Counted from the stretch's first letter, positions 39,762-55,678 are shown. The stretch: 64,000 bases of DNA from Pyrinomonadaceae bacterium (GCA_026129865.1 JAHCHG010000005.1:62001-126000), one strand, 5' to 3'. The notes: generated from the letters alone by a model not told the origin. A program made the numbers and translations.

Positions 39762-41702
39762 ATGAATCAAAATGGAAGCGGAAAAATTGTACGAAAGAAC
39801 GACGATCTGAAATCCCTTTTGCGCGACAGGGACGAACATTTCTGGCAGTTGCTCGCGGATCGTTCGGCTGATGCACAGAGTTTTACAGAGATCATCGCGC
39901 TCGCATCGTTAAGAAAGAAGGCGGAAAAGCTTGGAGTTAAGAACGAAACGGTTTTGCACGACCATCCGCTGCGAATTGCGCTTATCGGCGGCAGCACGCT
40001 TTACCCGTTTTCCGAACTGATCGAACATCTTACGTTTACGGCGGTCGGACCGGTTGAAGTTAAAAGCGGCGATTTTAACAATTACCGGGCAGAGATAACC
40101 GAAGAGACAAGCTTTCTTTACGATCTCAAACCGGACGTTGTGATCATTATTCCCGATGCTCAAAACTGCCGGTACACAGGCGGACTGACCGATCCTAAAG
40201 ATGAAATCGAGAGCGCCGCGTCATCAGTTTGCGATGAGATCCTGCAGCTCGCCGCATTAATTCGCGAGAATCTTAAGGCAGAGGTAATAATTTCAAATTT
40301 TATTTTGCCGCCGTTCACGGATCCCGGACCGCTTCGAACAAGAAGCGCTTCGTCCGACTGGAATTTTAAGAAAACGGTCAATTTAATGCTCGGCACCCGC
40401 GCTCCGAATTATTTGCATATTTGCGATCTCGAATTTTTGTCGTACCGGCACGGCGGGTTGAACTCGATCGACGAGAATGCCTGGTTCGAAAGCAAGCAGC
40501 TTTGTTCGCCCTCGCTTATGGCGTTCGCGGCTCATGAGATCGCGCATCTCATCCGCGGGCTTCGCGAAACGCCGAAAAAGGTTGTGGTTCTCGATCTCGA
40601 CAACACGCTCTGGGGCGGAGTTATCGGCGACGACGGAATGACGGGCATTGAGATCGGCGATACTTCGCCGCGAGGCGAGGCGTTTAAGGCGTTTCAGCAA
40701 TTTATTAAAACGCTCATTTCACGCGGAATACTTCTCGGCGTATGCAGCAAAAATGATTTTGAGAACGCGGTGGAGCCGTTTCGAAGACATCCTGAGATGG
40801 TTTTAAAGGAAACGGATTTTGTTTCGTTCAAGGCAAACTGGGAACCAAAAGCGCAGAATCTGATCGAAATGGCTGACGAGCTGAATCTCGGGTTAGACAG
40901 CTTTGTTTTTATCGACGACAATCCAGCCGAGATCGAGATCGTTAAGCAATTCGCTCCCGACGTGACGACAATTTTACTCGGACCCGACCCCGCGCTCTAT
41001 GTTCGCCAGCTGAAGGAATCGCGCTTGTTCGAGCGGTTCGCTCTGACGGAAGAAGACGCTGAAAGAACCGAGCAATATAGAAAGGAAAAACAGCGAAAAT
41101 CGCTTTTAGAAACCGCCGTCGATATGGATTCTTATCTTTCTTCGCTTGAGATGACAGGGAGTTTCAAGCGTTTTGACGAGCTCGATCTGCCGCGAATCGC
41201 TCAGCTTATCAATAAAAGCAACCAGTTTAACCTGACGACCCGCCGGCGGACACAGGCGGAAATTGAACAGTTGATGAGAGATCCGAATTATGTCGGGTTT
41301 ACGATGCGTCTTTCCGATAAATTCGGCGATCACGGGTTGATATCTATAGTTATCTTGCGGTCGACCGGAACGTCGAATATGGAGATCGACACCTGGCTGA
41401 TGAGCTGCCGAGTGCTAAAACGTCAAGTTGAAGAAGAAGTTGTGAACGAATTCGTCCGAATAGCGCGTTTGAAAAATGTAAGAACGATCAAAGGCATATT
41501 TAAGCCGACGGCGAAAAATTCGATGGTAAAAGACCTTTACCCGGCGATGGGATTCACGCCGGTGAAAATTGATGAGAACCGTTCCGAATTTGAACTTGAA
41601 ACCGAACGTTTTCAAAACAAGGAGTCGTTCATCACAATAGACCGGAGGACAAAACTAAATGAACAAGGAAGAAGCTTTAGCCGAACTGCAGAATATATTT
41701 GA
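39762..41702 (+). CDS. FkbH-like HAD-IIIC/GNAT acyl-loading protein
   Basis: 646 residues in the three-part FkbH layout: an N-terminal SGNH-like part of about 260 residues (IALIGGSTLYPF, SNFILPPFTDPG), a HAD phosphatase-like domain with VVVLDLDNTLWGGVIGDDG (nucleophile Asp about 277, second Asp 279) and IDDNPAEIE, and a GNAT-like C-terminal domain. FkbH proteins take glyceryl from 1,3-bisphosphoglycerate, dephosphorylate it and load it on an acyl carrier protein; other members load related C3 acids. The ACP gene starts inside its 3' end, which fits that job. The acyl group here is not proven. Confidence 0.9.
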   Translation: MNQNGSGKIVRKNDDLKSLLRDRDEHFWQLLADRSADAQSFTEIIALASLRKKAEKLGVKNETVLHDHPLRIALIGGSTLYPFSELIEHLTFTAVGPVEVKSGDFNNYRAEITEETSFLYDLKPDVVIIIPDAQNCRYTGGLTDPKDEIESAASSVCDEILQLAALIRENLKAEVIISNFILPPFTDPGPLRTRSASSDWNFKKTVNLMLGTRAPNYLHICDLEFLSYRHGGLNSIDENAWFESKQLCSPSLMAFAAHEIAHLIRGLRETPKKVVVLDLDNTLWGGVIGDDGMTGIEIGDTSPRGEAFKAFQQFIKTLISRGILLGVCSKNDFENAVEPFRRHPEMVLKETDFVSFKANWEPKAQNLIEMADELNLGLDSFVFIDDNPAEIEIVKQFAPDVTTILLGPDPALYVRQLKESRLFERFALTEEDAERTEQYRKEKQRKSLLETAVDMDSYLSSLEMTGSFKRFDELDLPRIAQLINKSNQFNLTTRRRTQAEIEQLMRDPNYVGFTMRLSDKFGDHGLISIVILRSTGTSNMEIDTWLMSCRVLKRQVEEEVVNEFVRIARLKNVRTIKGIFKPTAKNSMVKDLYPAMGFTPVKIDENRSEFELETERFQNKESFITIDRRTKLNEQGRSFSRTAEYI

Positions 41703-41910
41703 TGACATCTTTTTGGACGAAGTGACGGTAACGCCTGAACTCTCGGCAAATGACGTTGAAGAATGGGATTCGCTGCTGCATATATCGTTAGTCGTTTCGG
41801 TCGAAGAACGTTTTAAGATCAAATTTCGTGTCGGCGAGGTTGAAGCGACCAACAACGTCGGCGAATTTATCGACATAATTCTCGACCGTGTGAACGCCGC
41901 GTATGTCTAA
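41659..41910 (+). CDS. Acyl carrier protein
   Basis: 83 residues, acidic, one ACP four-helix fold. The phosphopantetheine site is EEWDSLLHISLV with Ser38, in the position of the usual DSL. A GGAGGAC binding site lies ten bases before the ATG, inside the FkbH-like gene, with which it overlaps by 44 bases, so the two are made together. It would carry the acyl group loaded by that protein and hand it to the MBOAT enzyme downstream. A dedicated carrier, distinct from the fatty-acid ACP, is the natural reading. Confidence 0.93.
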   Translation: MNKEEALAELQNIFDDIFLDEVTVTPELSANDVEEWDSLLHISLVVSVEERFKIKFRVGEVEATNNVGEFIDIILDRVNAAYV

Positions 41911-43000
41911 CGCCGGTTCCGATAAAATCAAAACAACCGAGTTTGTTCGTCCCGCTTTCGATTCATATGCGCAGGCGGGATTTTTCTTGCTGCTCGTGCT
42001 GGTCCCGCTGATCGTACCCGCGCTGCTGGACCGGCGAAATGCCGGTTTGGAAAAAGCCGCCTATGAGATGGTGCCCGAAGATCTCGGCGCGTTTTCGTTC
42101 GTAAAGAACGAGATATTTGAGAAGAACGACGATCTCGATATTCTCTTTTTGGGCAGTTCCGTGATGTTTGCCGGGATCGACGCAGCGGAAGTCCGCGATT
42201 CTCTAAATCGCGAACTCGGACGTCCGGCGAAGATCGCCGTTTTCGGACATTATTTTAATAGCATTGATGTTTCCTATGTCCAGTTGCGCGATCTTCTCGA
42301 ACACCGGCGTGTCAAAATGATCGTGTATTCAATTCCGAGGTCGCAGTTTACCGAAGGACCCAGCCCGAGCGGTGTCAGATTTATCCGATACAACGATGTT
42401 CCAGAGCTCACGCCCGAACTTCCGCTCCAGGGAAAACTCTCGCTTTATGCTTCGAGCGTTCTCAATTTACCGAAAGATCTGCTTTCGCTGACGCGCAGGA
42501 ACCTTGAACCGCCTTCGCCGTTTGCAGAAGATCTCGGCGCTGACGTTCAGCAAATGGCGATGGGACGCGATGTCGGGAAATTCGTTCGGATCGAGCCGCC
42601 GCCGCCCGGTTTCGAGGCTTCCGAACTGGTAGGATCAACCGACGATCGTTCAAAGTTTCGTTTTTCAAAAGAAACGGTCAGCGATTATCAAAAAGTATTT
42701 CTGATCCGGCTTTTCAAGCTCGCCAGCGACAAAAAGATACCGTTAGTTCTGCTCAATATTCCTCAACTCCATGAAAAACGCAGCCCAAAGATAATCGGAC
42801 TCGATGATTGGGCGCGCGAGTACGGAGTAGAGACTGAGATCATAGGAATCGCTCCGGCGGAGCTGTTTGAGGGACTAGCAGACAGCGAAATTGAAAAGCT
42901 GTATTTCGATGAACGACATTTTAATCAAAACGGAAACGAATTTTTTACGCGAGCCGTGCTGCCGGGCATCTTGGAGGTCTTCAGACAAAATGAAAAGTAA
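41903..43000 (+). CDS. Membrane-anchored SGNH-fold protein (AlgJ/AlgX/DltD-like partner)
   Basis: 365 residues: an N-terminal TM helix at about 25-48, then an extracytoplasmic domain. Motifs of the SGNH fold are visible: FLGSSVMFAGID near residue 87 (block I, Ser nucleophile) and YFDERHFNQNGNEFF near 333-346 (block V Asp and His). Such proteins pair with MBOAT enzymes in polysaccharide O-acylation (for example AlgX/AlgJ with AlgI, DltD with DltB), completing transfer outside the membrane. The ACP and MBOAT neighbours support this; acceptor unknown. Confidence 0.78.
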   Translation: MSNAGSDKIKTTEFVRPAFDSYAQAGFFLLLVLVPLIVPALLDRRNAGLEKAAYEMVPEDLGAFSFVKNEIFEKNDDLDILFLGSSVMFAGIDAAEVRDSLNRELGRPAKIAVFGHYFNSIDVSYVQLRDLLEHRRVKMIVYSIPRSQFTEGPSPSGVRFIRYNDVPELTPELPLQGKLSLYASSVLNLPKDLLSLTRRNLEPPSPFAEDLGADVQQMAMGRDVGKFVRIEPPPPGFEASELVGSTDDRSKFRFSKETVSDYQKVFLIRLFKLASDKKIPLVLLNIPQLHEKRSPKIIGLDDWAREYGVETEIIGIAPAELFEGLADSEIEKLYFDERHFNQNGNEFFTRAVLPGILEVFRQNEK

Positions 43001-43118
43001 GATATTTGCCCGAGTTTTCTACGCTTTCCTCACAGCTGCATGCATTGCGGCATGCACGATATTTTTATATTTGCCTTTTCGCGCCGTTGATTCCGGTCTC
43101 GTTTACAAAGGCTTTTGA
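42990..43118 (+). CDS. 42-residue single-TM protein between SGNH and MBOAT genes
   Basis: ATG at 42990 with GGAGG upstream at 42972-42977, overlapping the SGNH stop codon. The product opens MKSKIFARVFYAFLTAA, has one TM helix of about 20 residues with Cys-Ala repeats, and ends LVYKGF. Its stop at 43116-43118 is one base before the MBOAT start, so translation is probably coupled. DltX, a small single-TM protein with a functional C-terminus, is encoded next to the DltB MBOAT gene in D-alanylation operons; this could be an analogue. Size makes the call tentative. Confidence 0.5.
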   Translation: MKSKIFARVFYAFLTAACIAACTIFLYLPFRAVDSGLVYKGF

Positions 43119-43119
43119 G

Positions 43120-44397
43120 ATGTTAAACTTTCCCGTTTACGCCTTAACTCTGATTGTTTACGTTGTTTGTTCCAGATTGTCTTTAGCGCACAGCGGTCCC
43201 CGGACAAGTATGCGGCTATTTGCCGCCGGCAACGTTTTGACCTTTGGATGGCTGACCTTGCTGACGCAGGTTGACCCGTGGAGCGAGACGACGATTCGCG
43301 ATCTGGGAAGCTCTGCTATTTTAAGGCATATCGCGCTCGTCGGAAGTTACGTTGCGTTGATCGCCTTCGGCTACGTTCTCGTCAGAAGATTTGCCCGGAG
43401 CGACGGCGGTGCCTCGTGGATCGCGTTTTTTTACCCACTGCTTCTCTTAATCGTTTTCAAATACCTTTATTTTCTATGGCAGCCGATCGTCAAGATCGCA
43501 AACTGGGAACCGTGGGTGCTCGGGGCGGCGATAATTGGGCTGTCGTATATGGCATTTCGGTTGAGCTATCTGGTTCTCGAAGTTCGAAACGAAACTGTCG
43601 AAATGCCGACTTTGAGTGAGTATCTCGGATTCGCGTTTTTCTTGCCGACAATGCTGGTCGGACCGATAAACCCGTTTCGCGAGCATCAAAGTTCGATCCG
43701 CGCGATCGAAGACCGCGAGATCCCGTACGGACGGTGTTTGATGCGCGTTCTTGTCGGTCTTACGAAATTTTTGTTTCTCGCGAACCTGGCGAACCAGCTT
43801 ACTTACAGCGGAATATTTCTCGACGGAAAACCGCATTTGCTGATCGATCTTGGAATTGCTGCAGTTTTTTATTATTTCTTTCTTTACCTGAACTTTTCAG
43901 GCTTTTGCGATATTGCGATCGGTATTGCCGGGCTAATGGGAATCAAGGTTAGGGAGAATTTCAACAATCCTTTTGCCGCACGAAATGTTAAAGAATTTTG
44001 GAACCGCTGGCACATTACACTTTCCGAATATACAAAGGACGTTATATTCACTCCGCTCTCAAAAGTGCTGATCGGAAAACTCGGTGTGCGGCACGCCAAT
44101 TCGGCGATCGCTTTAAGCATTTTCACGGTTTTCCTCGTGATAGGGATCTGGCACGGCGTCGGGTGGAATTTTGTCCTATTCGGATTGGTCCATGCCGCGG
44201 GGGTCGTCTCAAATCATCTCTATACCGTATTTCTAAAACGCCGGCTGGGACGCGAAGGTTACAAAAGCTACAACAATAATCGGCTTGTGAACGCGTTCGC
44301 ATTGCTTATCACTTTCGCGTATGTAGCGTTCAGTTTTTCCGTATTCGCCAACGACCGTGCAATGATGGGAATTATCAAAAATGCAATCTTTTCCTGA
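43120..44397 (+). CDS. MBOAT-family membrane O-acyltransferase
   Basis: 425 residues from the ATG at 43120, one base after the small ORF's stop. About ten TM helices. Family motifs: FLPTMLVGPINPFREHQ, FSGFCDIAIGIAGLMG, RNVKEFWNRWHITLSEYTKD and GIWHGVGWNFVLFGLVHA with the conserved catalytic His at about 345. MBOAT proteins in such clusters (AlgI, DltB, PatA) move acyl groups from a cytoplasmic thioester across the membrane to a glycan. With its own ACP, this one most resembles the DltB arrangement in logic. Confidence 0.93.
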   Translation: MLNFPVYALTLIVYVVCSRLSLAHSGPRTSMRLFAAGNVLTFGWLTLLTQVDPWSETTIRDLGSSAILRHIALVGSYVALIAFGYVLVRRFARSDGGASWIAFFYPLLLLIVFKYLYFLWQPIVKIANWEPWVLGAAIIGLSYMAFRLSYLVLEVRNETVEMPTLSEYLGFAFFLPTMLVGPINPFREHQSSIRAIEDREIPYGRCLMRVLVGLTKFLFLANLANQLTYSGIFLDGKPHLLIDLGIAAVFYYFFLYLNFSGFCDIAIGIAGLMGIKVRENFNNPFAARNVKEFWNRWHITLSEYTKDVIFTPLSKVLIGKLGVRHANSAIALSIFTVFLVIGIWHGVGWNFVLFGLVHAAGVVSNHLYTVFLKRRLGREGYKSYNNNRLVNAFALLITFAYVAFSFSVFANDRAMMGIIKNAIFS

Positions 44398-44812
44398 CCA
44401 CAGTTTTTCGGAAATAGCTGAGAATGCGGAGTATTCGCGAAAATATACGATCGGAGATTCAGAATACACGGCATTGACGGATGTTTTCGGCGACCGCAGC
44501 CCGCTTCATGTCGACGAAGGATACGCGATCAGATCAGGATTCAACGAGCGCGTTATGCACGGCGCCATACTTCAAGGATTTTTGTCGCATTTCATCGGCT
44601 GCCATTTTCCGGGAAAGAGGTCTTTGATCCTTTCTGTTTCGGTCGATTACCGGCTGCCGAACTATCTTGGAGATGAAATAGAAATATTGGCGCGAGTTCG
44701 TCAAAAGGTAGAAACAGGAAAAGTTGTCGTTTTGGGGCTAAAGTTCAACAATCTGACGACCGGGAAATTGTCGGCTTCGGGTAAGATCTTAGTTTCAATT
44801 AGAGATGAATAA
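44381..44812 (+). CDS. MaoC-like (R)-hydratase/hot-dog protein
   Basis: 143 residues, a single hot-dog domain. The hydratase-2 motif is FGDRSPLHVDEGYA with the Asp and His pair typical of (R)-specific enoyl-CoA/ACP hydratases, then NERVMHGAILQGFLS. The enzyme adds water to enoyl thioesters or acts in reverse. It overlaps the MBOAT gene by 17 bases and the SDR gene by 8. With the ketoreductase-like SDR it could shape the acyl chain on the ACP, giving a hydroxyacyl group. Confidence 0.85.
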   Translation: MQSFPDHSFSEIAENAEYSRKYTIGDSEYTALTDVFGDRSPLHVDEGYAIRSGFNERVMHGAILQGFLSHFIGCHFPGKRSLILSVSVDYRLPNYLGDEIEILARVRQKVETGKVVVLGLKFNNLTTGKLSASGKILVSIRDE

Positions 44813-45536
44813 GTCGAAAAGATTAAAACGAGCGGTCGTTATCACCGGCGCGACGGGCGGATTAGGCAGCGCATTGTGCCGTGTTTTTGCCAATGCGGGA
44901 TATTTTGTCATCGGAATTTATAATTCAAATGACGCCGCCGGAGCCGCGCTTGAAAGTGAACTCGACGGTTTATCGACAAAATTTATCAAGCAGGATCTGA
45001 CCGTCGAAGGAAAATGGTTCGAGTTTGAAGCAGCGATAAGCAATTTGGATTGCGACCGGTTGACGCTGATCGCGAACGCATGCGCGCCGCTGTTTCCAAA
45101 ATCTCTTCAGCTTGTCGATTGGCAAGAAGTAGAATCTCAGCTCGACGTTACGGTAAAAGGTTCATTCCTGTCATTCAAAAAGGTTTTACCGGCGATGGCA
45201 AGATCGAAGAACGGGATATTTGTCAGCATTCTTTCAACCGCCGTTGATCCGCCGGCGAAAGGTTTTGCAGCTTACGCGATGGCAAAATCGGCTCTCGGTT
45301 CGTTTACGAAATCAATAAACGCAGAGTTTTCTCAGCGCGGGATCCGCGCCTTTTCCTTTTCGCCCGGTTTTATGGAGACAGCGTTAACAGATGCGTGGAG
45401 CGAACATTTTAAGGATCTGATCACCAAAGACGAACAGATCATAGCTCCTGAGAAATACGCCGAACAAATCTTAAAACTGTGTCTTGAAGAAGAAAGATCC
45501 GACGCTTTGCAAAACCATTCAATTTTCACGGCATAG
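44805..45536 (+). CDS. SDR-family reductase, 3-oxoacyl-ACP-reductase-like
   Basis: 243 residues. RAVVITGATGGLGSALCRVFANAG is the cofactor loop (TGxxxGxG); ILST and YAMAKSALGSFTKS give the catalytic Ser and YxxxK. The usual NNAG motif is altered to ANACAP, so the cofactor region is somewhat divergent. Size and context suggest reduction of a keto-acyl thioester in the acylation cassette. It is the last gene of the block before a likely terminator. Sugar reduction is the alternative. Confidence 0.82.
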   Translation: MNKSKRLKRAVVITGATGGLGSALCRVFANAGYFVIGIYNSNDAAGAALESELDGLSTKFIKQDLTVEGKWFEFEAAISNLDCDRLTLIANACAPLFPKSLQLVDWQEVESQLDVTVKGSFLSFKKVLPAMARSKNGIFVSILSTAVDPPAKGFAAYAMAKSALGSFTKSINAEFSQRGIRAFSFSPGFMETALTDAWSEHFKDLITKDEQIIAPEKYAEQILKLCLEEERSDALQNHSIFTA

Positions 45537-50281: not shown

Positions 50282-53200
50282 ATGTGTATTTTATTAAATA
50301 GTCTCCAAAAATCGATCCAGTTGTTGAAAGTTGTTTTTGTCGCAGCCGCTTTACTCTTTGTTTCACAAACAGCAGCCGGCGCAAAGCCGGAAAAACTTCT
50401 TGCTGCCAGCGAAGGCAAGGCGTTTACGGTCGAACAAACATCGTCCGGCATCATCAAGACCCCGATCAAAACAAGTTCTCCGGTGTTTGAGGTTTTCGGA
50501 ATTAGTCAGGATTCACGAAGCATTTTATATTCACCTTTGAAACACGGAAATCCTTCGGGCGAATTGTATCTCGAGGATATCGTCTCCGGCATCTCACATC
50601 GGATCAATGTACCGACGGTGATCGCTGCTTCGCTTTCACCGGACGGCAGCCGCGCCGCATTCACATATGTTTCTGGTACAGGTTTTGGGCTGGGAGTAAC
50701 GGACTTTGCGACCGGAAATACACAGTTTGTGCGTTCGGGAGATGTTTTTCCGGATCTGATCGAGTGGGAAAGATCAGGCTCGGGCATTAAATTTTTCGTG
50801 ATCGACCGTAACGAGCAGGACTTCAAGCTGGATTCGCAGATTGTTCAGCTCGTGGAAACCGGGAAGTCTTTAACCGCAGACGAAAACAGCTTTCCGGTGA
50901 TCGAACAAAAAATGGGATTTGGATTCACTCCTCTGACAAATCGACCGGGAAGAAGTTTCGTTGTTTCTTCGAATGACGGATATTCGCAGGTGATCGGGGC
51001 TGACCTTGCCGGTGCAGGGGAACTTCGGATATTAAATAATCTGACCGGAGAAGTTCGTGAAGTCTCATCGGGCAAATTTCTCCGAATGTCTGACGATGGA
51101 TTTCTGACGCGACAGTTTACTAAAAGCGGCTCAAAACTCGTCTTCACCGATTGGAACGGTTTGCAGACCGAACTTGGCACGATAACCGTGAATTTCAATT
51201 TCCCGGAAGCGGATTCACAGATGATCCAAGGCGGATTCGGCTATACGAGTCCCGGAAATTGCGGGATCATTTCTCATGGTCCGGGCATAATGGAGTTCGC
51301 TTATGATTTTAAGGATCCGACTGTTAACGAGCATATCATTGCAGCTGCGGATGGACTCGTCGTGTACAATTCGTCTAATCCTGACTGCTCCGGCTGCGGC
51401 GGAACATTTTTCGGTGAGACGGTAATTCTTCAGCACACGGACGGGTCATATACAAAATACGCACACCTTGAATCGGGTTCGCCACAGGCTTTAAACGGAA
51501 CCGATGTTTGTCAGGGACTTTACATCGCCAATCAGGGATCGACCGGGTCGGCGAACGGAAATGCTCATCTTCATTTTCAGCGCCAATCTTCTGCGGATCT
51601 TTTTGGACAGTCGATCGCAGTAGATTTTTCCGACGCCGGTTCAAATCCGCTCTCATGCAGCACTAATTATACTTCAGCAAGCACCGAACTATTTCATTCG
51701 ATTTCGCCGTCCTCGCATAACGCTGTAATTACAGGCGATTCAGGAAATTCGATAACGGTTACATCAACGGGCTGCAACTGGAGCGCCGTTTCGAACAAAC
51801 CGTGGATTACCATCACAAACCCCGGGAGCGGAATCGGAAACGATTCCGTAATTTTTTCCGTTGCGGACAACTCCGGAGGAGCGCCGCGCAGCGGTTCGAT
51901 AAATGTTGCCGGAAAAACGTTTACAGTAACGCAGGACGGGACAGCGCCGGTCAACCAGCCACCCACGGTAAATGCGGGAACAGACCAGACCATTACGCTT
52001 CCTTCGTTAGCTAATTTAACCGGTTCGGCAAATGACGACGGTCTTCCCGCACCTCCGGGAGCATTAACCATAAACTGGAGCCAAATTAGCGGTGGCGGAA
52101 GCGTTGTGTTTGGGAATGCGAACGCGCTTACTACTACCGCTGATTTTTCGCTTGCGGGCATTTACGTGCTTAGATTAACGGTTGATGACGGTGAATTTAC
52201 GGTTTCCGACGATATTAAGGTAATTGTAAATGTATCGGGCGGCGGCGGTTCGCTTTCGGGCAGCAGAAACGCACATCCGGCAAATGTTAATCTTACGACT
52301 CAAGGGACTGCAGACTGGGCGCATTGGGGTCTTGTTGATGCGAGCAGCTTCAATCACAAGAACGGAGTTGTTCAGCAGATAAGTAACGTAACGCCGATCG
52401 GATCAACTAGTACTCTTCGGTATGCAAATAATCTAAATTCTTATAATTGGAGCGATGGAACACCGACAGCATCAAACGGCGGTACTTCATCGGGAATTTA
52501 CATGGTCGGCGTTGGCGAAGGATTACAAATTTCAGTTCCGGCTTCAACCGATGTAAGGACTTTGAGAGTTTATACAGGAGTGTACCGCGCGCGCGGTCGG
52601 TTGGAAGTTACAATTAGCGACGGCAGCGCGTCGCCTTTCATCGACACATCGCTGGAACATACAACCGGTTCGGCTAATACAGTCTTTCTTCTAAATTTTC
52701 AGGCTGCATCATCGGGACAAACTCTTTATATCCGGTGGGTGGTCGATGCGATCTATGACCCATTTGGAAATGCAACACTTCAGGCAGCGGCGTATCAGAC
52801 GCCTTCTGCACCTGTAAATACTGCACCGACGGCTGATGCAGGAACCGATCAAACGATCACACTTCCGGCAATGGCAGTTATGAACGGTTCTGCGAGCGAT
52901 GACGGTTACCCGATCCCTCCGGGAACGCTTACGACAACCTGGAGCAAGATCAGCGGGGAAGGAAACGTAACGTTTATCGATCCGAACGACCCGACAACCA
53001 ATGTCTCATTTTCTAGTGCGGGCATTTACAACCTCCGGTTAACGGCGAGCGACGGACAACTGATTCATACGGATGATGTTCGGGTCGTGGTAAACACAAA
53101 CAGCGGCGGCGGACTTTTGGCAACAACATTTTCGGCAACTCCATCGACAGTTGACCTGACAAACAGAGGCACGGGCGATTGGGCACACTGGGGTCACACA

Positions 53201-54676
53201 GCCGTCGGCAGTTTCAATCATAAATCGGGCGTAACCCAAAAGATCTCAAATTACAATTTAATAGGAACGAATCCGCCAAATCGATACACTGACAATCCTA
53301 CGTCTTACATTTGGTCGGACGGCACTCCTTCGGCAGTTACGGGCGGCTCGACTACTGGGATTTGGGTTGGAGGATTAGGAAACGGGTTCACTTTCACCGT
53401 AGCGGCAGACACAATGCCGAAAACGCTCGAGCTTTACGTCGGTCTATGGGCTGCAGGCGGACGTTTAGAAGCAACGTTGAGCGACGGCGCGGGATCGCCG
53501 ATCATCGACAATAGTTTCTCTTCGGCAAATGTTGCAAACGGCAAATTCAGAATCTCATTCCAGGCTAACTCGAGCGGTCAAACGCTTACGATCCGCTGGG
53601 TTGTCGATAACCTGGTCAACCCGTTTGGAAACATTACGCTTCAGGCGGCTGTACTTGACGATACGTTTGAAGGCGATATCGCGACTAGACCGTACGGATC
53701 ACGTAACGGGTCTATAGACCTGGTAGATTTGATCCAGCTTAGACGCTTTCTCGGGGGGCTGGACATGCCGTATCAGTCCAATGAATTCGAACGCGCCGAT
53801 TGCGCACCTCTTTCATCATTCGGCGATGGAAACGTGGATCTAGTTGATATTATTCAAATCAGACGGTTTATGGCAGGGTTAGACAGTACTACGAAAACCG
53901 GCGGACTTTTCGAATTTAGCGCTCCGTCCGGATTTAAGCTTGAGCCGCCTCCCCGAAAAGCCTTGCTGGCTAATGCGTTATCGGTTCAGCGGGTGAGCTT
54001 ATCAGGAAATGTAGTAAAGATCGAAGTTCGATACGATTCCGGTGGTACCGAGGTCGGTGTCAGTTTCTCAATTGACTGGGACACGGCTGTTTTGAGTAAT
54101 CCAACTAATATTACCCTCGGAAGCGGTGTGACCGGTACGGGTCTAACGACTAATTCCACCCAAGTGGGTTCGGGTAGATTAGGGATAGCACTGGATCGGA
54201 ATAGTTTGAGCGATCCGTTCCCGGCAGGTGACACTCAACTTGTTACAGTCGAGTTTACATTGGTGCCTGTTCCGCCTGCTCCAACAACAACTATCAACTT
54301 CGGCGATCAACCTTTAACTCGTCTTGTGGTTTACGCGAACACCAGCACCCTTACGCCAATGAGTTCGTCCGGAACTATTGGTGTTCTTGGTCCTTCGGCA
54401 GCATCTGTAACCGTCGGCGGGCGCGTACGAGACCTGAAAGGACGCGGACTTTCGCGGGTTCTGGTTACCATGTCCGACCAATTCGGCGCAACCCGATCGG
54501 CTATAACAAACACGTTTGGCTATTATCGGTTCGACGGCGTACTCGTCGGCGAAAGCTATTTCGTTTCCGCCTTTGGAAAAGGAAAACAGTTCGAGCCTCC
54601 GTTCCATTTTCTGACCGTGTCCGATGCTCGCGATGACGTCAATTTTGTCGTCGTCTCTGACCGGAGCGGAAGGTAG
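50282..54676 (+). CDS. Secreted multidomain protein with M23, BACON, dockerin- and cohesin-like domains
   Basis: 1464 residues with a signal peptide (cleavage near residue 34). By position: TolB-like propeller segment (about 60-300); M23-like peptidase region (about 325-455) with AYDF, AAADGLVVY and NAHLHF; BACON domain (about 475-555) with WSAVSNKPWITI and ending TVTQDG; PKD-like domain; a 180-residue unit containing DWAHWG and SFNHK; a second PKD-like domain and a second copy of that unit; a dockerin-like pair (about 1134-1203: IDLVDLIQLRRFLGG, VDLVDIIQIRRFMAG); a cohesin-like domain (about 1230-1335); and a CarboxypepD-regulatory-like end. It probably acts at the cell surface, maybe binding peptidoglycan or the locus glycan. 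Confidence 0.88.
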   Translation: MCILLNSLQKSIQLLKVVFVAAALLFVSQTAAGAKPEKLLAASEGKAFTVEQTSSGIIKTPIKTSSPVFEVFGISQDSRSILYSPLKHGNPSGELYLEDIVSGISHRINVPTVIAASLSPDGSRAAFTYVSGTGFGLGVTDFATGNTQFVRSGDVFPDLIEWERSGSGIKFFVIDRNEQDFKLDSQIVQLVETGKSLTADENSFPVIEQKMGFGFTPLTNRPGRSFVVSSNDGYSQVIGADLAGAGELRILNNLTGEVREVSSGKFLRMSDDGFLTRQFTKSGSKLVFTDWNGLQTELGTITVNFNFPEADSQMIQGGFGYTSPGNCGIISHGPGIMEFAYDFKDPTVNEHIIAAADGLVVYNSSNPDCSGCGGTFFGETVILQHTDGSYTKYAHLESGSPQALNGTDVCQGLYIANQGSTGSANGNAHLHFQRQSSADLFGQSIAVDFSDAGSNPLSCSTNYTSASTELFHSISPSSHNAVITGDSGNSITVTSTGCNWSAVSNKPWITITNPGSGIGNDSVIFSVADNSGGAPRSGSINVAGKTFTVTQDGTAPVNQPPTVNAGTDQTITLPSLANLTGSANDDGLPAPPGALTINWSQISGGGSVVFGNANALTTTADFSLAGIYVLRLTVDDGEFTVSDDIKVIVNVSGGGGSLSGSRNAHPANVNLTTQGTADWAHWGLVDASSFNHKNGVVQQISNVTPIGSTSTLRYANNLNSYNWSDGTPTASNGGTSSGIYMVGVGEGLQISVPASTDVRTLRVYTGVYRARGRLEVTISDGSASPFIDTSLEHTTGSANTVFLLNFQAASSGQTLYIRWVVDAIYDPFGNATLQAAAYQTPSAPVNTAPTADAGTDQTITLPAMAVMNGSASDDGYPIPPGTLTTTWSKISGEGNVTFIDPNDPTTNVSFSSAGIYNLRLTASDGQLIHTDDVRVVVNTNSGGGLLATTFSATPSTVDLTNRGTGDWAHWGHTAVGSFNHKSGVTQKISNYNLIGTNPPNRYTDNPTSYIWSDGTPSAVTGGSTTGIWVGGLGNGFTFTVAADTMPKTLELYVGLWAAGGRLEATLSDGAGSPIIDNSFSSANVANGKFRISFQANSSGQTLTIRWVVDNLVNPFGNITLQAAVLDDTFEGDIATRPYGSRNGSIDLVDLIQLRRFLGGLDMPYQSNEFERADCAPLSSFGDGNVDLVDIIQIRRFMAGLDSTTKTGGLFEFSAPSGFKLEPPPRKALLANALSVQRVSLSGNVVKIEVRYDSGGTEVGVSFSIDWDTAVLSNPTNITLGSGVTGTGLTTNSTQVGSGRLGIALDRNSLSDPFPAGDTQLVTVEFTLVPVPPAPTTTINFGDQPLTRLVVYANTSTLTPMSSSGTIGVLGPSAASVTVGGRVRDLKGRGLSRVLVTMSDQFGATRSAITNTFGYYRFDGVLVGESYFVSAFGKGKQFEPPFHFLTVSDARDDVNFVVVSDRSGR

Positions 54677-54709
54677 GAACATTCGCCGAATCAAACGGTG
54701 CAAAAAGAA

Positions 54710-55678
54710 ATGTCCGAAAGATTAATTGTTCAAACAGCTGCCCGCAAGGCGCCGGCGGTTGTTGAGAGCAGAGGATTGATCCGCTTGATCTGGGCGGAAA
54801 TGCGCCCGCATCAATGGGTTAAAAATCTGTTCATTTTTGCTCCGCTTTTGTTTGGAAGAAAACTCGCCGATCCGTCCGCGGTGGCAAATTCTGCGCTTGC
54901 ATTCGCGGTATTCTGCTGTATCGCCAGCGGGCTTTACATCATAAACGACATAATCGACGCTGAAGACGACCGCTCGCACCCGGAAAAACGTCTTCGCCCG
55001 ATAAGTTCCGGTGCGCTGCCGATACCGGTCGCAATTCTTGCCAGTATCAGCCTGACCGCCGCAGGTTTTTGGATCGCTGCTTCCATAAGATGGAGTGTAT
55101 TCCTCGTCGCAGCGGCGTATTTTCTACTGACGCTTACATATTGCCTCGTCCTGAAAAAAATTATGATCCTGGACGGAATGACGATATCCGCCGGTTTTGT
55201 ATTGAGGATAATCGGCGGCGCGTTTGCGATCGGAGTTTTACCGACTCATTGGCTGATCGCCTGCGCATTTCTTTTGGCGCTCTTTCTGGCATTTACTAAG
55301 CGCCGGCAAGAGATCCTTATGCTCGACAAAACCGCAGGCGAACATCGAAAAACGCTCGAAGAATATTCCGTTGGATATCTCGATCAGGTAAACACTATTC
55401 TCATCAGCGCCGTGTTAGTTTGCTACGCACTTTATACGGTGGCGCCGGAAACGGTTTCAAGGTTTGAAACGACAAGTCTTATCTACGGAACCGTTTTCGT
55501 AATTTACGGAATGCTCCGCTATATGGTCCTGATAAAATCGCCGGACTACGGCGGCAATCCGAGCCGAATGCTTCTCAAGGATAAACCTCTGCTTCTTACC
55601 GTTGCAGGCTGGGCTATTTATAACGCATTTGTTATTTATCATTTGGACATCACAGATCTCTTTGAACTATTCCATTGA
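54710..55678 (+). CDS. Decaprenyl-phosphate phosphoribosyltransferase-like UbiA protein
   Basis: 322 residues from the ATG at 54710. UbiA fold with about nine TM helices: RPHQWVKNLFIFAPLLFG, NDIIDAEDDRSHPEKRLRP (first Asp-rich motif), KRRQEILML and YSVGYLDQVN (second motif area). These are the marks of the DPPR-synthase branch, which joins PRPP to decaprenyl phosphate in the pathway to decaprenyl-P-arabinose. DprE1/DprE2 partners were not found in the window. It sits just after the secreted protein gene and 33 bases before a GT-C gene that may use such a lipid-P-pentose. Confidence 0.9.
   Translation: MSERLIVQTAARKAPAVVESRGLIRLIWAEMRPHQWVKNLFIFAPLLFGRKLADPSAVANSALAFAVFCCIASGLYIINDIIDAEDDRSHPEKRLRPISSGALPIPVAILASISLTAAGFWIAASIRWSVFLVAAAYFLLTLTYCLVLKKIMILDGMTISAGFVLRIIGGAFAIGVLPTHWLIACAFLLALFLAFTKRRQEILMLDKTAGEHRKTLEEYSVGYLDQVNTILISAVLVCYALYTVAPETVSRFETTSLIYGTVFVIYGMLRYMVLIKSPDYGGNPSRMLLKDKPLLLTVAGWAIYNAFVIYHLDITDLFELFH

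Follow-up and report, generated by a model that had tools for sequence, protein, structure and literature searches.

A run of seven overlapping or abutting genes in a Pyrinomonadaceae bacterium encodes an FkbH-type protein, with its own acyl carrier protein (ACP), beside a predicted membrane acyltransferase in a surface-glycan locus. The window analysed here is a stretch of 64,000 nucleotides (JAHCHG010000005.1:62001-126000, assembly GCA_026129865.1) and belongs to contig C17 in a genome of 4.4 Mb and 21 contigs. It carries the cassette at 39762-45536 on the plus strand, in the order FkbH, ACP, SGNH protein, 42-amino acid membrane protein (hereafter X), MBOAT, MaoC and short-chain dehydrogenase/reductase (SDR). 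A sequence-only reading of the window had proposed a dedicated cassette with a logic like that of Dlt D-alanylation, FkbH replacing the adenylating enzyme DltA. We consider it probable that the locus encodes a Dlt-like machine for acyl export in which FkbH acts as the loader; of the explanations weighed, this is the best.

The FkbH-ACP-SGNH-X-MBOAT core

All seven genes of the sequence-only reading were located where it had placed them, and families, fold and motifs fit its assignments. The overlaps amount to 44 bases between FkbH and ACP (as that reading had noted), 8 between ACP and SGNH, 11 between SGNH and X, 17 between MBOAT and MaoC and 8 between MaoC and SDR. The ORF finder placed the MBOAT start at a TTG (43006) within the X gene; the likely start is instead the ATG at 43120. 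Only one base separates this ATG from the stop codon of X, so the two genes abut.

Conservation of gene order in related genomes had been set beforehand as a check on the cassette. The core order FkbH-ACP-SGNH-X-MBOAT was kept in the Acidobacteriota loci L032, L112, L113, L114 and L151 and in a Verrucomicrobiota contig (L033; 3 kb, with FkbH and MBOAT cut at the contig ends). Six loci besides the window thus share the order of the first five genes, more than chance would explain. Identities between the window and its closest named relative, Chloracidobacterium sp. UBA7659 (L032), were 62% for FkbH, 68% for ACP, 43% for the SGNH protein and 58% for the MBOAT. Judged by this relative, the window's genome is itself acidobacterial. 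A profile search with the MBOAT clade identified members in 9 of 396 Acidobacteriota genomes, all nine beside FkbH, ACP and SGNH genes, which together with the six loci supports the dedicated, Dlt-like cassette. Five of these nine MBOATs were split from their shuttle motif and four carried it fused (IVYKAF or IVYRAF).

The first gene (39762-41702) encodes a 646-amino acid HAD/GNAT protein with a score of 314.6 bits against TIGR01686 (cut-off 146.65; 7e-94), which places it in the FkbH family; residues 57-430 matched PDB 3slr (8e-53). An alignment of homologues indicated that the HAD motifs DLDNT (278-282) and DDNP (385-388) and the run TWLMSCRVLKRQVE are all kept, and Cys549 is conserved. The ACP gene (41659-41910; 83 amino acids) encodes a protein with a weak match to PF00550 (0.0057) and a predicted phosphopantetheine serine, Ser38, in D37-S38-L39; EWDSL was invariant across six other cassettes at identities of 41-67%. 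The cassette thus has a stand-alone carrier protein with a phosphopantetheine serine, as does Dlt. Family scans found no AMP-binding protein within the cassette that could be a DltA-type adenylating ligase, and FkbH stands in its place. In published polyketide and peptide clusters, FkbH proteins and ACPs are assigned the formation of glyceryl-ACP from 1,3-bisphosphoglycerate, and by analogy glyceryl loading from this donor is the predicted role of the FkbH protein here. The glycerate-loading systems for methoxymalonyl-ACP, tetronates and suomilide likewise pair an FkbH-family protein with an ACP, but serve a polyketide or peptide assembly line; the cassette has none, and its acyl-ACP appears to feed a membrane acyltransferase.

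Microprotein X and its putative acyltransferase partners

The gene for X (42990-43118; GGAGG sequence upstream) encodes the 42-amino acid polypeptide MKSKIFARVFYAFLTAACIAACTIFLYLPFRAVDSGLVYKGF, with one transmembrane (TM) helix, a positively charged N-terminus and the C-terminus LVYKGF. This agrees with the 'acyl shuttle' FxYxxF of DltX at five of six positions. Homologues of X in the same gap between SGNH and MBOAT genes ended in LVYQGF (L032), LVYQAF (L112, L113, L114 and L151) or AVYQNF (L033). The motif [LA]VY[KQ][GAN]F formed the tail of X beside every split MBOAT of the FkbH clade, with the tyrosine and the final phenylalanine kept in seven X genes and position 1 being Leu or Ala; a separate TM microprotein with an FxYxxF-like tail, as found in Dlt, is therefore present. 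Six of 4216 small ORFs in 30 loci had the tail motif, all six being MBOAT-adjacent shuttle genes (X genes or the one in L115, described below). Each X protein contained one strongly hydrophobic stretch with basic residues near the N-terminus, and by the positive-inside rule the tyrosine would lie outside the membrane. Between the close relatives L113 and L114, most X codon differences were synonymous (11, against 4 replacement changes). Neither PHROGs nor Pfam assigned X to a family, and similarity to DUF2798 was weak only. PatA has the same hexapeptide fused at its own C-terminus and is acetylated on its tyrosine (PMC12148441). The sequence-only reading had noticed this tiny TM protein and left it without a role; X is most likely a DltX-like acyl shuttle, with Tyr39 as the predicted acyl acceptor.

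The MBOAT (43120-44397; 425 amino acids) matched PF03062 (1e-17), and its closest solved relatives were the DltB structures 6bug and 8jem (about 1e-37). Both histidines are kept (His298 and His345), the His345 column being histidine in 39 of 40 MBOATs. The score against TIGR04091 (DltB) was 184 bits, below the cut-off of 375. The fused C-terminal FxYxxF of AlgI/PatA-type proteins was not found on the window MBOAT, which ends in IIKNAIFS. With few exceptions, the fetched loci contained either an MBOAT ending in the motif or one without it, as in Dlt and the window, together with a nearby microprotein bearing it.

In a phylogenetic analysis with a modest sample and long branches, the FkbH clade of MBOATs was united (support 99/90) and sister to Gram-positive DltB (96/84), and a 100/99 branch separated the DltB/FkbH side from AlgI/PatA-like MBOATs; an earlier, smaller tree agreed. 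On the tree and the PDB matches we assign the window MBOAT to the DltB lineage rather than to AlgI, a correction to the earlier comparison, which had named DltB/DltD and AlgI/AlgX pairs alike. A single clade of all FkbH-linked MBOATs, a group named after seeing the tree, was rejected (p-AU 0.005), and a single clade of all split MBOATs was mildly disfavoured (p-AU 0.03). A search for relatives of the window MBOAT on plasmids gave Firmicutes DltB matches only.

The gene between ACP and X (41903-43000; 365 amino acids) encodes a predicted membrane-anchored SGNH acyltransferase, an analogue of DltD or PatB, for which no match was found in Pfam (DltD included) or NCBIfam. It has a hydrophobic N-terminal helix and both the block I serine and the block V DxxH of the SGNH superfamily, in GSS (84-86) and DERH (336-339), with GSS, D and H invariant across seven sequences. 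The structure model adopted an SGNH fold (VIA-align Z 12.2 to the SGNH protein 2o14 and 10.7 to PatB 8tlb), and the top Foldseek match was DltD 3bma, a weak one (E 0.0024).

The proposed relay, its cargo and competing explanations

We propose that FkbH would charge the ACP phosphopantetheine with a C3 unit, which the protein's family suggests is most likely D-glyceryl taken from 1,3-bisphosphoglycerate, and that the DltB-type MBOAT would move the acyl group across the membrane to Tyr39 in the LVYKGF of X, as the homologous mechanism suggests. X would then give it to the active-site serine of the SGNH protein, which may esterify the glycan made by the surrounding glycosyltransferase locus. Catalytic residues are kept in all cassette enzymes, and the acyl-tyrosine chemistry of DltX and PatA has been demonstrated elsewhere (PMC12148441). 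Gene content, conservation, tail motif and phylogeny are direct observations on these loci, and sequence evidence supports the carrier-plus-microprotein relay well. We infer the chemistry, including the acyl group carried (glyceryl, lactyl or hydroxybutyryl), and the acceptor glycan.

The last two genes, encoding a MaoC-like hydratase/dehydratase (44381-44812; 143 amino acids; PF01575, 4.6e-7) and a FabG-like ketoreductase of the SDR family (44805-45536; 243 amino acids; PF00106, 1.5e-28), keep their catalytic motifs (GDRSPLH at 37-43, and TGATGGLG and YAMAK, respectively). Glyceryl-ACP is a 3-hydroxyacyl thioester, and a MaoC dehydratase could therefore remove its C3 hydroxyl as water; in this genome the product might pass through enolpyruvyl- to pyruvyl-ACP, which the SDR would reduce to lactyl-ACP. 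We put this route forward tentatively and think it somewhat unlikely. In the bryostatin loading module, an FkbH-type domain with a dehydratase and a ketoreductase is proposed to give D-lactyl from glyceryl; those are covalent domains of a polyketide synthase (PKS), whereas here separate MaoC and SDR proteins would feed export.

Several observations weigh against the proposed relay or its lactyl step. Position 1 of the X motif is Leu where DltX has Phe, and X and its homologues gave no match to Pfam DltX (PF12459) at E up to 10, while a streptococcal DltX control in the same run scored 6.7e-15. By anatomy X thus resembles DltX, yet it falls outside the Pfam DltX family. The SGNH model is of modest confidence (pLDDT 64). 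The DltB residues that contact DltC (Met302, Val305 and Ile306) correspond to Thr, Ser and Lys in the window MBOAT by simple counting from the shared histidine, so an ACP dock on this MBOAT, if present, would differ. The lactyl step is affected by the absence of MaoC and SDR from the other six core loci. Only the first five genes of the seven-gene unit claimed earlier were therefore conserved, although the pair does follow FkbH-ACP in L161, where an AlgI-type MBOAT, FkbH, ACP, MaoC and SDR occur in that order. The L161 proteins are distant from those of the window (only 32% identity for MaoC and 24% for SDR). Given this distance and the lack of the pair in the remaining core loci, support for the lactyl step comes from two loci and from chemical logic. 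Three relatives of MaoC were found in 297 Acidobacteriota genomes, none beside FkbH, ACP or MBOAT genes, and a search of plasmids gave no relative. MaoC and SDR are accessory genes outside the conserved core.

The alternative that survives best keeps the same relay with unmodified glyceryl as cargo, while MaoC and SDR would serve some other reaction of the locus, for instance on a sugar or a fatty acyl chain. In its favour, the pair is absent from six core cassettes and the SDR is generic; however, MaoC overlaps the end of the MBOAT gene and SDR that of MaoC, all in one operon and with motifs intact, and the pair's recurrence after FkbH-ACP in L161 also speaks against a separate task. We judge this alternative possible but rather unlikely. 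It is clearly less probable that the cargo is not derived from glycerate, with FkbH loading another acid or MaoC and SDR feeding a 3-hydroxyacyl group such as hydroxybutyryl onto ACP. MaoC/FabG-like pairs do produce 3-hydroxyacyl thioesters, and the family matches fit, but the operon has neither a ketosynthase nor a ligase, and core loci lacking MaoC and SDR still have FkbH and ACP, so that FkbH must supply the cargo there.

Slightly more doubtful again is acylation of a secreted small molecule or lipid instead of a surface polysaccharide, as proposed for MBOATs in some cyanobacterial peptide clusters. FkbH proteins are mostly known from natural products and occur with MBOATs in suomilide-type peptide clusters; against this, no PKS or non-ribosomal peptide synthetase lies beside the cassette, the genes around it encode glycosyltransferases, a flippase and sugar nucleotide enzymes, and systems that acylate polymers are those that typically have an SGNH partner. 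That the X ORF overlaps its neighbour by chance, or encodes a membrane microprotein of general function unrelated to acyl transfer, for which the missing Pfam DltX match and the weak DUF2798 similarity might speak, is very improbable: X keeps its position, its TM helix and a C-terminal VYxxF in two phyla, 4216 small ORFs gave zero background, and the MBOAT next to X lacks an otherwise near-universal fused motif.

Relation to known systems and genomic setting

The proposed Dlt-like relay with an FkbH loader shares with Dlt D-alanylation (DltA, DltC, DltB, DltX and DltD) a carrier protein as donor, a DltB-lineage MBOAT without a fused shuttle, a separate membrane microprotein with a C-terminal tyrosine motif and an SGNH protein with an N-terminal membrane segment. 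It differs in having FkbH instead of DltA, in the position of the X gene between the SGNH and MBOAT genes, in the lack of Pfam matches of X to DltX and of the SGNH protein to DltD, in its distribution (Acidobacteriota and Verrucomicrobiota, with the window's copy set in a glycan locus) and in its predicted cargo, a C3 hydroxy acid. The cassette would work like Dlt yet falls outside it on the ligase, the DltB cut-off, Pfam DltX and Pfam DltD; by sequence we set it within MBOAT-SGNH acylation. O-acetylation by PatA/PatB and AlgI/AlgX similarly involves an MBOAT with conserved histidines, an acyl-tyrosine shuttle and an SGNH transferase, but uses acyl-CoA and a shuttle fused at the MBOAT C-terminus (PMC12148441), where the cassette has a carrier protein and a separate microprotein. 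Non-Dlt MBOAT/SGNH pathways are stated to have neither a carrier protein nor a DltX-like microprotein (PMC12148441); unlike them, the cassette has, as judged from its sequence, both. A literature search, in which most subscription papers were out of reach, found no ACP-fed MBOAT pathway besides Dlt; FkbH and MBOAT appeared together only in cyanobacterial peptide papers, and none on FkbH in polysaccharide loci was found. Within the reach of that search, the earlier suggestion that a Dlt-like logic with an FkbH loader is undescribed holds.

On the AlgI side of the tree, too, FkbH-ACP cassettes were found, a separate group in which the MBOATs are of the fused kind, and an MBOAT gene was present in 12 of 20 further FkbH loci chosen regardless of neighbours. 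The link between FkbH-ACP and MBOAT is therefore recurrent, with clear split-microprotein cases in the DltB-side lineage. One such AlgI-side cassette is carried by Sinorhizobium meliloti, a species amenable to laboratory work, whose pSymB (L171, 3573-9452) encodes in one run a VOC protein, an MBOAT ending in FLYQGF, a 409-amino acid protein, ACP and FkbH. VOC proteins lie beside such cassettes in L157, L159, L171 and L172; that of L157 resembles methylmalonyl-CoA epimerase, and the alpha carbon of the acyl-ACP may be where these proteins act.

Other shuttle arrangements were also observed. L115 (G272:C6, 57-9310) encodes an AMP-ligase, a GNAT protein, an SGNH-like protein, an MBOAT without fused motif and a 48-amino acid microprotein ending in FVYVNF; it is another acidobacterial split shuttle system, near an adenylating ligase, and its MBOAT branches beside the DltB/FkbH group. 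In L029 (G192), a microprotein ending in PFIYQGF lies 76 bases upstream of the start of an MBOAT without fused motif, possibly a split system on a long branch. L119 (G199:C2, 6014-10542) is another possible carrier-fed MBOAT system, encoding an SGNH-like protein, a fused-motif MBOAT, a possible adenylating ligase of 564 amino acids and an ACP. Besides a normal DltX ending in FIYNEF, Streptococcus infantis/oralis (L053, L081 and L110) carries a further small ORF some 490 bases upstream of dltX; its product ends in EFIYSEF or DFIYSEF and is possibly a duplicated shuttle microprotein in the dlt operon.

The cassette is surrounded by genes for glycosyltransferases, GT-C-type membrane transferases, a polysaccharide flippase-type protein, a polysaccharide deacetylase, sugar epimerases, an aminotransferase and a UbiA prenyltransferase; together these mark the region as a surface-glycan locus. 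The UbiA-family protein (54698-55678), encoded amid the GT-C-type transferases, may produce a polyprenyl-phosphate sugar that serves as donor for this glycan. The locus also encodes a 1464-amino acid protein (50282-54676) with M23 peptidase, BACON and PKD domains.

More broadly, the cassettes may represent a second class of carrier-protein-fed transmembrane acylation outside Gram-positives, in which FkbH-made glyceryl-ACP, optionally converted by MaoC and SDR to lactyl-ACP, is exported to envelope glycans by a DltB-lineage MBOAT, a DltX-like microprotein and an SGNH protein, with FkbH-ACP recruited on at least two occasions, in the DltB and in the AlgI lineage of MBOATs. We regard this wider proposal as plausible, and hold it with less confidence than the relay itself. 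So far the only described case of membrane acylation that relies on a carrier protein and a separate tyrosine microprotein is teichoic acid D-alanylation, which places alanine on the walls of Gram-positive cells. If the proposal is true, the mechanism would extend beyond Gram-positives, loaded from glycolysis via FkbH, and FkbH would gain a role outside natural products. Glyceryl or lactyl esters would be predicted on envelope glycans, where, being base-labile, they could escape current analyses. With fused and split cassettes in one clade, the origin of the DltX-type shuttle could also be studied by a comparison that nature provides.

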